From Paraburkholderia ginsengiterrae (GTDB lineage: Bacteria; Pseudomonadota; Gammaproteobacteria; Burkholderiales; Burkholderiaceae): a stretch of 64,000 nt of DNA. Location: the NCBI RefSeq assembly GCF_001645125.1, contig NZ_LXKA01000276.1, positions 1 to 64,000 of the forward strand, given 5' to 3'. Below, piece by piece: positions 58,791 through 62,595 of the stretch (position 1 is its first letter; each line of letters opens with the position of its first letter). The position numbers and the translations under genes were made by a program. The notes under the pieces were generated by a model that was not told where the DNA came from, ran no database searches, and saw only the letters and a program-made list of their open reading frames with translations.

Positions 58791-59291
58791 TCATCCTTGA
58801 TCCGCAGGCGGCGTTCGATACTCGATTGCGCCGCCGGGCAAAAAATACAGGATGAGCGCTTTCCTGGTGACCGTTGGGAAATGCTCGCTAAGCGGCGGAA
58901 ACACGCACCAGCCCGCGCCATGTCCACAAAACTGCGCGCCTTCTTCGAGTGGAATGATCATGTTGATCTCTCCGTTCGTATGGCAGTGGTACTGTCCCTT
59001 CACATCCCGCAACAGCCCGCTTTCGATGCTCATGCCGGCCGTCTCGGGCGAAGGTTCCGCGATGCGACCCCGCCGGTAATCCGCGCCTTCGATTTCCACA
59101 TACGCCGCCCACCCTTCTTCGACCCCGATTTTCAGCAGGCTCACCATGCGCGCGTAGGATTGGGTACCGACTCCAAATTCGCGATTCAGATGCGACTCGA
59201 GCGTGCCGTCTAATGACCGCCCACGTATGCTGTCGCAGACTTCCCGCAACAGCCCCGACATCTCGTCCTTGTGAATTCCCGTGGGCAGCAT
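58791..59291 (-). CDS. DUF4863 / 4-hydroxylaminobenzoate lyase-like protein
   Basis: A 166-aa cupin-like protein. Segments RGRIAEPSPETAGMS, YHCHTNGEINMIIPL, and CGHGAGWCVFPPLSEHFPTV match the pattern of the PnbB family, which converts 4-hydroxylaminobenzoate to protocatechuate. The His pair in YHCHTNGE is probably a metal site. AAGGAG sits six bases from ATG 59291. No nitrobenzoate reductase or protocatechuate gene is nearby, so the real substrate is open. Confidence 0.8.
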   Translation of the reverse strand: MLPTGIHKDEMSGLLREVCDSIRGRSLDGTLESHLNREFGVGTQSYARMVSLLKIGVEEGWAAYVEIEGADYRRGRIAEPSPETAGMSIESGLLRDVKGQYHCHTNGEINMIIPLEEGAQFCGHGAGWCVFPPLSEHFPTVTRKALILYFLPGGAIEYRTPPADQG

Positions 59292-59549
59292 CAACGTCTC
59301 CTTACTGTTTGACTCCATACGCGGCTTTTGGCCGCTCCGCCGCCCCAAAGCCTGAGTTCGCGGATTCTGCCGCTAGCCGAACGACCGTCAACCAGTCTAG
59401 AGGTGCAGGCGGGTGCTGAACAATCAAACATTCCGGCGCAGATATAAGCAATCGGAATACCGGAGACCCGCTGAAATTTTCTTCGCGGTTCCGGCAGAGC
59501 CGTTTCGGCAGCAGCCGGACCCGCGCGTGGCGAACGCGGAAGATTGCCC

Positions 59550-60392
59550 CTAGTGACGCGCAACCGGGATGAAGCCGTAACGCGGAAGCACCTCCTGCGC
59601 CGCCGGACTCATCAGATACATCGCCAGCCGGTAAGCGGCATCGCGCGTCGCGGCGTTCTGCGGCGACTCGATCACGGTCATTCCGTAATAGACGGGAAAA
59701 TCCAGATCGGGCGGCAACTCGACGTGCGTCAGCGACGTGTCAGGCGTCGTTTCGTGGGAACTGCAGTAGCCGATAAACACATCGACGTAGTGTGTCGCAA
59801 GAAAGTATTTCACCGGACTCTGGCCTGCCGGCACGGGCGGCGTGACGGCGCCGCCCACCAGTTGCTTCGCCTTCGCCTCCAGCGTTTGCGTGGCGCCGGG
59901 CCGGACGGTGCCGGCTTTTTCAAACAGCGCCCATGCGTAGTCGCCTCCGGGGTCTGCCTTCGGCGTCGACGTGCCGATCCCGATGGCCGGATCGAGCAGC
60001 TTGTCGAGCAGGTTGGCGCTGGTCAGCCCGACATCCGGACGCGCGTCCACGCACAGCCGGTTTCGCGCGAATACCACGACGGGCGCCGCTTTGCCTTCCG
60101 CTGCAAGGCGCTGCGGATGCGCCATGTTCGCGGAAACGAAAATGTCGGCTCTCGCCGAATGCTCGATCTTGTCGAGCAAGGTGCCGGCAGGCCCGGTCAC
60201 GAGCTGAACCGGCTGGCCGGTCTCGCTGGTGTACTGGCGCGTGATGGCACCGAGCGCGCCGGTCGTGCTGCCGGCCGCGTAGACCGTGATAGTCGGCACG
60301 GCGGGCGCCTGCTGAGCCACGGCGAGACAGGCGCTCATGCCGATAGCGGAGGACAGCAGCCCCCGGAGCAGAAAGGAGGACAGTTTTTTCAT
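59550..60392 (-). CDS. ModA-like periplasmic substrate-binding protein
   Basis: An extracellular oxyanion-binding protein of the molybdate/tungstate ModA type (280 aa). A signal peptide precedes mature TITVYAAGSTTGALGAI, with SAGSTxG-like anion-binding Ser/Thr; ADIFVSANMAHP, VFARNRLCVDA and GTSTPKADPGGDYAW are typical. ATG 60392 begins two bases past the stop of the TonB receptor (TGATATG), so translation is coupled. No ModB permease or ModC ATPase follows, so the inner-membrane partner must lie elsewhere or be absent. Confidence 0.87.
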   Translation of the reverse strand: MKKLSSFLLRGLLSSAIGMSACLAVAQQAPAVPTITVYAAGSTTGALGAITRQYTSETGQPVQLVTGPAGTLLDKIEHSARADIFVSANMAHPQRLAAEGKAAPVVVFARNRLCVDARPDVGLTSANLLDKLLDPAIGIGTSTPKADPGGDYAWALFEKAGTVRPGATQTLEAKAKQLVGGAVTPPVPAGQSPVKYFLATHYVDVFIGYCSSHETTPDTSLTHVELPPDLDFPVYYGMTVIESPQNAATRDAAYRLAMYLMSPAAQEVLPRYGFIPVARH

Positions 60393-60393
60393 A

Positions 60394-62523
60394 TCAGAGA
60401 TCGACCTGGATGGATGCACGAACCGTTCGCGGCGCGCCGAGTGTGGCAGTGCCGCTATCGCTGCCGGTATAGCCGTTCTGGCCCGCCGGTGTGATGTTGG
60501 CCCAGTAGTGGCGGTTGGCTACGTTGTCGACGCCAACTCGCAGCGCCACAGCCTTGCCGGCGACTTTCGTCAGGTAGCGCGCGCCGAGGTTGAAGACCGT
60601 GTAACCGTCGGCGTAGTCGGTGTTCGAATAGTTGGCGGCGCGACGGCTCGCATAGTTCACGTCGACGTTAAAGCCGAGCCCGGCCACGGTCGGAATCGAG
60701 TAATCGATGAGCGCGTCGAACACGACGCGCGACAGGCCGAGAATCTGCGTTCCCTCGGTGGCGGCGACGCCGGTGTTATGCAACCGCGGATCCAGCAGCG
60801 CGAGCCCGGTGTAAATGTTGATATCACGCGTGACGGCCCCCGTCGCGGTCAGCTCGATCCCGCGATTCACCTGCTCACCCTGCTCCGCATAGACGTTGTT
60901 CGCGGTCACCATGGCATAGGGCCGCTCGATCCGGTAGAGCGCGGCACCCAGCGTCGCACGGCCGATATCGACCTTGTAGCCGAGTTCCCACTGCTTGCTG
61001 CGGTAAGGGGCGAGTTCATCGCCCGCGTTGACGGTGCCGGACGGTGCGATGTCGCCCTGCTGGAGACTGTCCGCGTAGGTGACATAGGCGGTCATGTTCG
61101 CAAGCGGCTTGTACATCAGGCTGGCTGTCGGGCTGACGCCGTCGGCGCTGTACTTGCTCGTGACCGCCCCCGCCGAGTTGTAGTTCTCGGCATGGATCCA
61201 GCTCTGGCTCGCGGCCAGCAGCGTCGACCAGTGCTCGTTGAAACTGATCGTGTCGCCAACGCTGATCGCTTGCTGGAATGTATTGACCGACCGATAGCGG
61301 TTCGAAAAATCCGGCAGCGGCGGCTCGCCAAAAAGCGTCGGATTACTAAGGTTTCCGGTACCGAGCGTGATCGCGCCGGTATGGTATGGCGTGTAGCGGT
61401 TCCAGTAAAAACCGGTAGTCGACACGAACACGTCGTGGGTCAGGCCGGCGAGCGCGACGTGGCCGTTCAACGCGATCGTGTTGCTGATGATCTGGTCGAG
61501 ACTGTAGGTCGTCGTCGCGGTCGTTTCCTTGTACGCGCCGCTGTTATTGGTGAGCGTGAGAGTCGGGACAGTCGACGCCCGGTCGTTCGTTTCGCGCTGC
61601 ACGCCTGCGCTCAGGTGCCAGTCCTGATTGAAGTCGTGCTTGAGCGTCGCGCCCATCATGTTCGTGACGTTGTTGTCACCGGCCCATGACTGGCCGAACC
61701 CGACCGTTGCCGGATTCGGCGCGGCGGGAAGCAGCACGTTCTTCGCCAGCGCGAAGGTTCCGGGGTAGCCCGTGTCGAGGTAGTGGTACGTGCTGAAATT
61801 CGTTTCGAGCCGCGTGTCCGGCGTGAAACGGACATCGAAGGCGAGGCTCGCGAGGCGCCTGCGCAGACGGCTGTCCGAGACATAGCCCTCGCCATCCTGG
61901 TTGAGCAGATTGAGGCGATAGCCGAAGCGGTCGTCGTTGCCGAAGTGGCCGCCAAGGTCGAGATGCTCGGTCCACAGATCCTTCGACTCATAGCCCAGCG
62001 TGAATTCGCGCAGCGGTTCATCGGTCGGACGCTTGAGCACGTAGTTGAACGTGCCGGCCGGACTCGCCGGCCCGTAAAGGGCGCCGGCAAGTCCGTTCAG
62101 CACCTCGATGCGGTCGAACTGCTCGATCGGATAGTCGGTCGTCGCGGCGATGTTCATGCCGTCGATCCGCGTATTCTGGACGACGCCCGCCTGCATGCCG
62201 CGCGTCTGGGGCCGGATATTCCAGCCCTGCACCGACGGAATGAAGGTGAATGCCTCCTGCACGCTGCGCAGTTGCTGGTTCTTTGCCAAGGACTCCGGAA
62301 TGACGTTAATCGAATAAGGCGTATCGAGCAGCTTCTTTTCGCCGAGCGGCCCGACCACGGTCTGCTTGACCTGATACGACGGGTAAGTCACGGGCATGAC
62401 GCCTGTGATGACAATCGGGGCAAGCTGAGCTTCGTTGTCCTGTGCATGAGCCGGGAGGGCCACGCCGATTCCTGTGTAGGCGAGTGCGAGCGTAGGTAAT
62501 GTGTAGCGGGAACGTGGTGCCAT
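60394..62523 (-). CDS. TonB-dependent outer-membrane receptor (siderophore type)
   Basis: A 709-aa 22-strand outer-membrane transporter. A signal peptide (LALAYTGIGVALPAHA) is followed by a TonB-box-like segment APIVITGVM, a plug domain (about 50-160, with the PSVQGWNIRPQTRGMQ and DRIEVLNGLAGALYG motifs), then the barrel and a C-terminal RASIQVDL. It resembles FhuE/FecA-type siderophore receptors. Its gene is followed immediately by a ModA-like binding protein and preceded by a ModE-like operator, which suggests a molybdate or tungstate complex rather than iron. Confidence 0.9.
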   Translation of the reverse strand: MAPRSRYTLPTLALAYTGIGVALPAHAQDNEAQLAPIVITGVMPVTYPSYQVKQTVVGPLGEKKLLDTPYSINVIPESLAKNQQLRSVQEAFTFIPSVQGWNIRPQTRGMQAGVVQNTRIDGMNIAATTDYPIEQFDRIEVLNGLAGALYGPASPAGTFNYVLKRPTDEPLREFTLGYESKDLWTEHLDLGGHFGNDDRFGYRLNLLNQDGEGYVSDSRLRRRLASLAFDVRFTPDTRLETNFSTYHYLDTGYPGTFALAKNVLLPAAPNPATVGFGQSWAGDNNVTNMMGATLKHDFNQDWHLSAGVQRETNDRASTVPTLTLTNNSGAYKETTATTTYSLDQIISNTIALNGHVALAGLTHDVFVSTTGFYWNRYTPYHTGAITLGTGNLSNPTLFGEPPLPDFSNRYRSVNTFQQAISVGDTISFNEHWSTLLAASQSWIHAENYNSAGAVTSKYSADGVSPTASLMYKPLANMTAYVTYADSLQQGDIAPSGTVNAGDELAPYRSKQWELGYKVDIGRATLGAALYRIERPYAMVTANNVYAEQGEQVNRGIELTATGAVTRDINIYTGLALLDPRLHNTGVAATEGTQILGLSRVVFDALIDYSIPTVAGLGFNVDVNYASRRAANYSNTDYADGYTVFNLGARYLTKVAGKAVALRVGVDNVANRHYWANITPAGQNGYTGSDSGTATLGAPRTVRASIQVDL

Positions 62524-62551
62524 TGAGTTTCTTCGTTACGGGGGGGTAGTT

Positions 62552-62595
62552 CGTTATATCTTTCGGAATATAACGTGGCAGGTGACTGTCAACAA
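62552..62595 (-). promoter_or_regulatory. ModE-like operator overlapping the TonB receptor promoter
   Basis: The perfect inverted repeat CGTTATAT-N8-ATATAACG (62552-62575) is close to known ModE operators, whose core is TATAT/ATATA arms ending in AACG. On the minus strand a -35 TTGTTG (62590-62595) and -10 TATATT (62567-62572) are spaced 17 nt. The repeat covers the -10, as expected for a repressor. A seven-G run lies between it and the start codon. Confidence 0.6.

Follow-up and report, generated by a model that had tools for sequence, protein, structure and literature searches.

A TonB-dependent receptor and a ModA-like binding protein downstream of a ModE-type box in Paraburkholderia ginsengiterrae: a candidate unit for outer-membrane molybdate uptake

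The gene pair and its promoter region

The 64-kb stretch of Paraburkholderia ginsengiterrae DNA analyzed here (the window) carries on its minus strand a gene for a TonB-dependent receptor of 709 amino acids with plug and barrel (60394–62523), which is directly followed by a gene for a ModA-like periplasmic binding protein of 280 amino acids (59550–60392, minus strand), and a candidate operator of the ModE type lies upstream of the receptor gene. A reading made from the sequence alone (the sequence-only reading) had described a TonB receptor–ModA-like pair and interpreted it as a candidate outer-membrane oxyanion uptake unit. Both protein assignments are backed by Pfam and NCBIfam, and the interpretation as an uptake unit is supported by the analysis; the distance between the genes, given as two bases, is in fact one base between the TGA stop of the receptor and the ATG of the binding protein.

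The receptor, taken from the open reading frame (ORF) list, consists of the Pfam domains Plug and TonB_dep_Rec, Pfam reporting no further N-terminal domain, and scores 263.2 bits against the TIGR01783 cut-off of 223.5 (NCBIfam). A signal peptide and a TonB-box-like motif, PIVITG, can be read by eye, and the best-scoring solved relative is FemA. The binding protein is assigned to SBP_bac_11 by Pfam and reaches 74 bits with TIGR01256 (modA; cut-off 62.5, NCBIfam), and comparison of its structural model by VIA-align predicts a ModA-like fold. Oxyanion binding by E. coli ModA involves Ser12, Ser39, Ala125, Val152, and Tyr170, with Ala125 and Val152 binding by their main chain; according to the alignment, equivalents of Ser12 and Tyr170 are retained in the window protein (Ser42 and Tyr209). 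As the sequence-only reading had stated, modBC are missing locally: the ORF list holds none beside the pair, and modABC and modE are found on another contig. Because modBC do not lie beside the pair, the binding protein is not assigned to a standard ModABC transporter as its ModA.

The candidate operator, CGTTATAT-N8-ATATAACG, is an exact palindrome at 62552–62575, i.e., −52 to −29 from the receptor start. The core of the ModE consensus derived from E. coli (PMC2700814) is reproduced at 15 of 16 half-site positions, while some of the inner and outer A/T letters of that consensus are not matched. With up to three mismatches, the operator pattern occurs once in the window against 0.02 matches expected, and a degenerate form, CGNTATATN{6,9}ATATANCG, is found once in the whole 8.5-Mb genome (reversed control: 0), this single site being a palindrome and hence listed on both strands. 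The sequence-only reading had placed the palindrome over a good −10 element. The overlap holds, since a candidate −10 hexamer, TATATT (62567–62572, minus strand), which was read from the sequence, shares positions with the left half-site of the operator on the coding strand. The promoter itself cannot be called good: the promoter scan reported none there, a TTGACA at 62587–62592 stands merely 14 nt from TATATT, and TTGTTG (62590–62595, minus strand), at the 17-nt spacing, could at most be a weak −35 candidate. A good σ70 promoter is not supported.

Distribution of the pair and conservation of the box

One scan of a collection of species genomes yielded 36 relatives of the binding protein and, among these, 8 loci with a receptor match directly upstream, namely seven Paraburkholderia/Burkholderia records and one metagenome-assembled genome (MAG) of Nitrobacter. 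One of them (L040) retains no more than the second half of the receptor, and in another the receptor is in two pieces (L038). Plasmid records added Polymorphobacter megasporae, with a binding protein that is 62–65% identical, and Methylocystis iwaonis (49%). Among 145 genomes of the genus, 24 encode a related receptor (E ≤ 1e-130), 16 of them of the window type (≥74% identity); 14 of the latter, including the receptor of the window itself, are full-length, two are broken or partial, and a ModA-like gene follows in 16 of 16. At the family level, the receptor clade was found in 17 of 399 genomes (E ≤ 1e-110), and the binding protein in three of 150 (the own genome, G036, and G098; E ≤ 1e-20); in G036 and G098, short stretches around the binding-protein match were compared and contained nothing matching the receptor. 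Inspection by eye, without a family search, of nine further ModA loci (eight from Bacteroidetes, one archaeal) revealed no receptor adjoining modA, and the order ModA–ModBC was seen in six of the eight Bacteroidetes loci. The pair of Polymorphobacter is plasmid-borne, with an integrase on one side and a Tn3 transposase on the other, and horizontal spread of the pair is therefore likely.

Conservation of the box was assessed in 48 promoters of the receptor clade, defined as the 300 bp before the receptor or, in permease-led operons, before the permease. Two loci with a missing 5′ end (L040 and L135) were left out of the counts, as were eight loci (L081, L082, L086, L087, L089, L094, L103, and L105) that stem from the same genomes as L035–L041 according to their equal identity values; L044 and L045, which gave no match to the window receptor, are uncounted, and L141 and L142 served as out-of-clade controls outside the 48. 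The pattern CGNTATAT-N8-ATATANCG with no more than two mismatches is present in 42 of the 48 promoters (8 with none, 26 with one, 8 with two). When the palindrome was permuted 200 times, 0.005 promoters matched on average and never more than 1 of 48, and the pattern was absent from all 1637 other 300-bp stretches taken from these loci. For the receptor–ModA loci with an intact 5′ end, where the sequence-only reading had proposed to look for the inverted repeat, the count is 20 of 22, the other two being a compensated variant with three mismatches (L029) and a locus without a clear box (L030). The remaining promoters divide into permease-led operons (8/9), receptor–PF01497 loci (11/11), Paracoccus (0/2), and others (3/4). 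Column counts over 46 boxes reveal that most half-site positions are near-invariant and that spacer and flanks are mixed, and the box is present in several deep branches of the receptor tree. In Polymorphobacter, both half-sites are changed together, to CTCTATAT-N8-ACATAGAG, and a short gene for a ModE-type helix-turn-helix (HTH) protein lies next to this box, divergent from the pair.

A ModE homologue, the presence of which the sequence-only reading had suggested to check, is indeed encoded in the own genome: a full-length ModE with an HTH and two Mop domains (L024:3239–4075) lies beside modABC on contig C2, with Mop above its cut-off and ModE_repress, at 94.1 bits, just under its cut-off of 98.5. 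A ModE-type HTH was also detected in all 31 receptor-clade genomes tested, which are carriers only, and exceeds the curated cut-off of the family in 12 of them. Elsewhere in the own genome, a box with three mismatches and the same spacing as the window box precedes modA by about 50 bp, and three boxes (1, 2, and 2 mismatches) occur in a region on contig C24 that encodes a short ModE-type HTH protein, an Oxidored_molyb protein, a WtpA-like binding protein, and a Wtp-like permease-ATPase fusion. Altogether, 18 sites with up to three mismatches were found in the own genome vs. 7 for the reversed pattern, and the sites with three mismatches therefore include chance matches; the 3-kb stretches at nine other box loci of this genome gave no match to the window receptor. 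Across 143 genomes of the genus, a perfect degenerate box is present in 56 (about 73 sites), and the reversed pattern in one. In the reverse test, the 30 of these sites that came with a locus were read: five are at a window-type receptor, 19 at or near a gene for a 450-amino-acid protein known from the C24 region, two have a modE match, and four are unassigned. Among these 30 loci, the 450-amino-acid gene (L025:1092–2444) is the most frequent neighbour of a perfect box.

These data bear on the question of which regulator recognizes the palindrome. Another protein might bind it, the likeness to a ModE box being a matter of chance, since ModE binding of the box is a prediction and many genomes encode a second, shorter ModE-type protein that could bind instead of full-length ModE. 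However, the box is single in the genome and conserved throughout the clade, and modA, the C24 molybdenum region, and loci with a modE match have boxes of the same type, which makes this explanation very improbable.

A run of seven G residues in the leader (62540–62546; C7 on the coding strand), for which the sequence-only reading had considered an effect on expression, is not conserved. It is absent from the leaders of the closest orthologues, L035 and L041, by which its use as an expression switch was rejected, and it is probably without function.

Sister receptors, their neighbours, and the cargo

In the receptor tree, which left out three loci with a receptor in pieces (L038, L040, and L140; alignment A2 left out L047, the ORF reference of which held a stop), the receptor–ModA form constitutes a single group (group A, 21 rows, support 100/99). 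The ten Burkholderiaceae rows of group B have a PF01497 binding protein instead (10/10), together with a FecCD-type permease in nine by tblastn, and the locus without a permease match (L135) is ended by its contig; in the operon L109, the permease, ATPase, and PF01497 protein are named by Pfam. Group C (Pantoea, Cronobacter, Chimaeribacter, an E. coli plasmid, and genome G015) combines the receptor with a PF01497 protein, divergently in two loci. The tree does not recover this group as a single clade: Cronobacter and one copy of Pantoea At-9b join Paracoccus, and the E. coli plasmid was left out of the tree. Pantoea At-9b also has the receptor near a ModA-like gene (34% identity). The two PF01497 proteins searched match HI_1472, presumably the molybdate/tungstate-binding protein MolA, as third best (4e-12) and second best (2e-17) of the solved relatives.

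Receptors of 48–49% identity from eight genus genomes, which have no ModA-like neighbour and no box with up to four mismatches in their 1.5-kb flanks, had been considered as a boxless control. Wider stretches ruled this out, as the box precedes the first gene of a permease–ATPase–receptor–PF01497 operon. The family is thus wider than the sequence-only reading had thought: sister receptors share the box but have other partners. With moderate confidence, the clade can be regarded as dedicated TonB-dependent transporters for molybdenum (or tungsten) with an ancestral ModE box, in which the partner has been exchanged between the ModA-like and MolA/BtuF-like classes. The form in the window would hand the oxyanion to a ModA-class protein and would therefore not need a chelate-type inner-membrane permease.

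At L139 (G037:C17), fdhD and a tonB-like gene flank a more distant clade receptor that has a 2-mismatch box, and a gene for a YdeP/FdhF-type molybdoenzyme lies approximately 5 kb from this receptor. At L114 (G160:C49; 3–6794 and 7224–9506), a type I polyketide synthase gene and a Monooxy_af470-like gene are directly followed by a clade receptor that has a 1-mismatch box; this neighbourhood is a possible chelator cluster for molybdenum and is offered as a lead. On the E. coli plasmid pZ0117EC0013-3 (L140), the clade receptor is in several pieces and does not appear in the gene table of the record; it has a 2-mismatch box and is followed by PF01497-like and permease-like matches. Two Methylophaga MAGs (L044 and L045) contain, in a row, a TupA-like gene, a distant TonB-dependent receptor, a PF13343-type binding protein, a di-haem oxidoreductase, and a ModA-like gene. 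Weak boxes (3–4 mismatches) precede the TupA-like gene and the receptor, a ModE-type HTH gene was seen in L044, and the cluster is possibly an independent outer-membrane system for molybdenum or tungsten. In the window itself, the neighbouring gene at 58791–59348 (minus strand) encodes a PnbB-family protein (4-hydroxylaminobenzoate lyase, PF16155), with no visible link to the pair.

With respect to the form in which the metal is taken up, the evidence leans two ways: the receptor family and the sister operons toward a chelate, the ModA partner toward a free oxyanion once the cargo is in the periplasm. In a narrower form of the uptake reading, the receptor would import molybdenum or tungsten exclusively when complexed by a siderophore-like chelator (a molybdophore) from the cell itself or its neighbours. 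The complex would be opened in the periplasm, where the ModA-like protein catches the oxyanion, and the sister systems with PF01497 protein and FecCD permease would carry the complex further inward. Membership of the receptor in a siderophore-receptor family with FemA as best solved relative, sister operons with FecCD permease, ATPase, and PF01497 protein as on the usual chelate route, and the boxed clade member beside a type I polyketide synthase all fit this view. ModA-class proteins, however, bind free oxyanions, and no chelator cluster was recognized beside the window pair or in ten listed group-A loci, which were inspected by eye without a family search. To our knowledge, receptors for molybdenum-chelator complexes, for example in Azotobacter, have not been identified. 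According to the available text of one study, TonB-dependent siderophore receptors of A. vinelandii are induced via VnfA1 when molybdenum and vanadium are absent (PMC9542535). Taken by itself, the exclusive import of a chelate is given a little less than an even chance.

The same family membership would also suit an ordinary xenosiderophore receptor for iron, placed under ModE as molybdate competes for siderophores, with a ModA-like protein that serves another, e.g., sulfate-like, anion. In keeping with this, out-of-clade receptors of 31–32% identity lack the ModE box. With a 19-position Fur consensus and up to six mismatches allowed, Fur-like matches (5–6 mismatches) were found in 7 of 50 promoters vs. 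none of 50 after one shuffling of the letters. The window promoter, however, contains no such match, the partners are ModA-like or HI_1472-like, and the neighbours at L139 and in the Methylophaga cluster are molybdenum/tungsten genes, so that this reading appears quite unlikely.

Finally, the cargo might be tungstate (or vanadate) and not molybdate. The own WtpA-like protein and permease-ATPase fusion are under the same type of box, and the Methylophaga cluster combines a TupA-like gene with a ModA-like gene and another receptor. On the other hand, molybdenum is the first candidate in view of the ModE-type box and the neighbouring molybdoenzyme genes, and the ModA and MolA families separate molybdate and tungstate poorly. 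Tungstate or vanadate in place of molybdate is considered unlikely.

A putative molybdate uptake route and its relation to known systems

The pair is probably a ModE-repressed, TonB-driven outer-membrane extension of molybdate uptake, which would act on molybdate, tungstate, or a chelate of them. When molybdenum is replete, molybdenum-bound ModE would occupy the palindrome, which overlaps the −10 region, and keep the promoter shut, repression being suggested by the position of the box; when molybdenum is scarce, the promoter would be released and the receptor made. The receptor could then capture molybdate, tungstate, or a small-molecule complex at the cell surface, a cargo to which regulation, partner, and neighbours point, and TonB-derived energy would move it into the periplasm. 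There, the co-produced ModA-like protein would take over the oxyanion and deliver it to an inner-membrane permease encoded elsewhere, either that of modABC or the own Wtp-like permease-ATPase fusion.

Several observations weigh against this proposal. The system is sporadic and its distribution patchy, the receptor being found in the own genome only among 369 genomes of the class (E ≤ 1e-100). The box has three mismatches in 4 of the 48 promoters (L029, L112, and two near-identical Paracoccus copies), a clear box is missing in Methylocystis L030 (6 mismatches) and Granulicella L122 (5 mismatches), and the 42 boxes are not independent events because the clade rows are related. Two 2-mismatch boxes of the own genome, on C123 and C234, have no visible link to molybdenum. 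Judged from its sequence, the ModA-like protein belongs to a divergent subfamily: the equivalent of E. coli ModA Ser39 is Ala69, and Ala is also found in 21 of 22 other receptor-paired rows. Siderophore receptors make up both the sequence family (TIGR01783) and the solved relatives of the receptor, so a chelate or even an iron complex might be carried. Six of the seven promoters with a Fur-like match lie in the clade (6/48, the seventh being one of the two outside), and these six may therefore be under Fur or dual control. The downstream permease is likewise uncertain, because the reading frame of the own modB (L024 on C2, minus strand, frame from L024:5487 downward) is interrupted by a TAG after about 181 codons and loses the last part of the permease; this TAG may be real or a draft error.

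The components of the pair resemble several known systems. The siderophore receptors of TIGR01783, such as FemA, FoxA, and FhuA, share sequence family and plug-barrel architecture with the window receptor, which differs by its ModE-type promoter box and its ModA-like partner gene. With H. influenzae HI_1470–1472, presumably the molybdate transporter MolBCA, the sister receptors have in common PF01497 partners that match HI_1472; the sister operons differ by including a TonB-dependent receptor, and the window pair uses the ModA class. ModE regulons of the E. coli type, as far as known, comprise genes for inner-membrane transport, cofactor, and enzymes, whereas in the window the target appears to be a TonB-dependent receptor of the outer membrane; the likeness consists in a ModA-class binding protein, a ModE in the genome, and the type of box (consensus in PMC2700814). 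Active acquisition of molybdate across the outer membrane with involvement of ModA is described for P. aeruginosa, where ModA is secreted by the type VI secretion system and acts with IcmP of the outer membrane (PMC8602904; mentioned in PMC11734730), and a two-gene ModE unit is not described in the available text (PMC8602904). The A. vinelandii receptors mentioned above resemble the window receptor in being TonB-dependent and induced without molybdenum and vanadium, there in operons with ATP-binding cassette (ABC) transporter genes, but are controlled by VnfA1 and σ54 and described as siderophore receptors in the text available (PMC9542535). Among the literature matches listed, titles and abstract openings contain no ModE-controlled TonB-dependent receptor, and a prior mention in RegPrecise or in subscription papers is possible.

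Passage of molybdate through the outer membrane is usually assumed to be passive. The receptor clade with its conserved ModE-type boxes provides candidate genes for the outer-membrane step of molybdenum uptake in soil Burkholderiaceae, alphaproteobacteria, and Enterobacterales. If the proposed function is correct, molybdenum and tungsten would be added to the cargoes of TonB-dependent transport and ModE would be tied to outer-membrane physiology, and some bacteria might actively pump molybdenum through the outer membrane and not depend on passive leakage.

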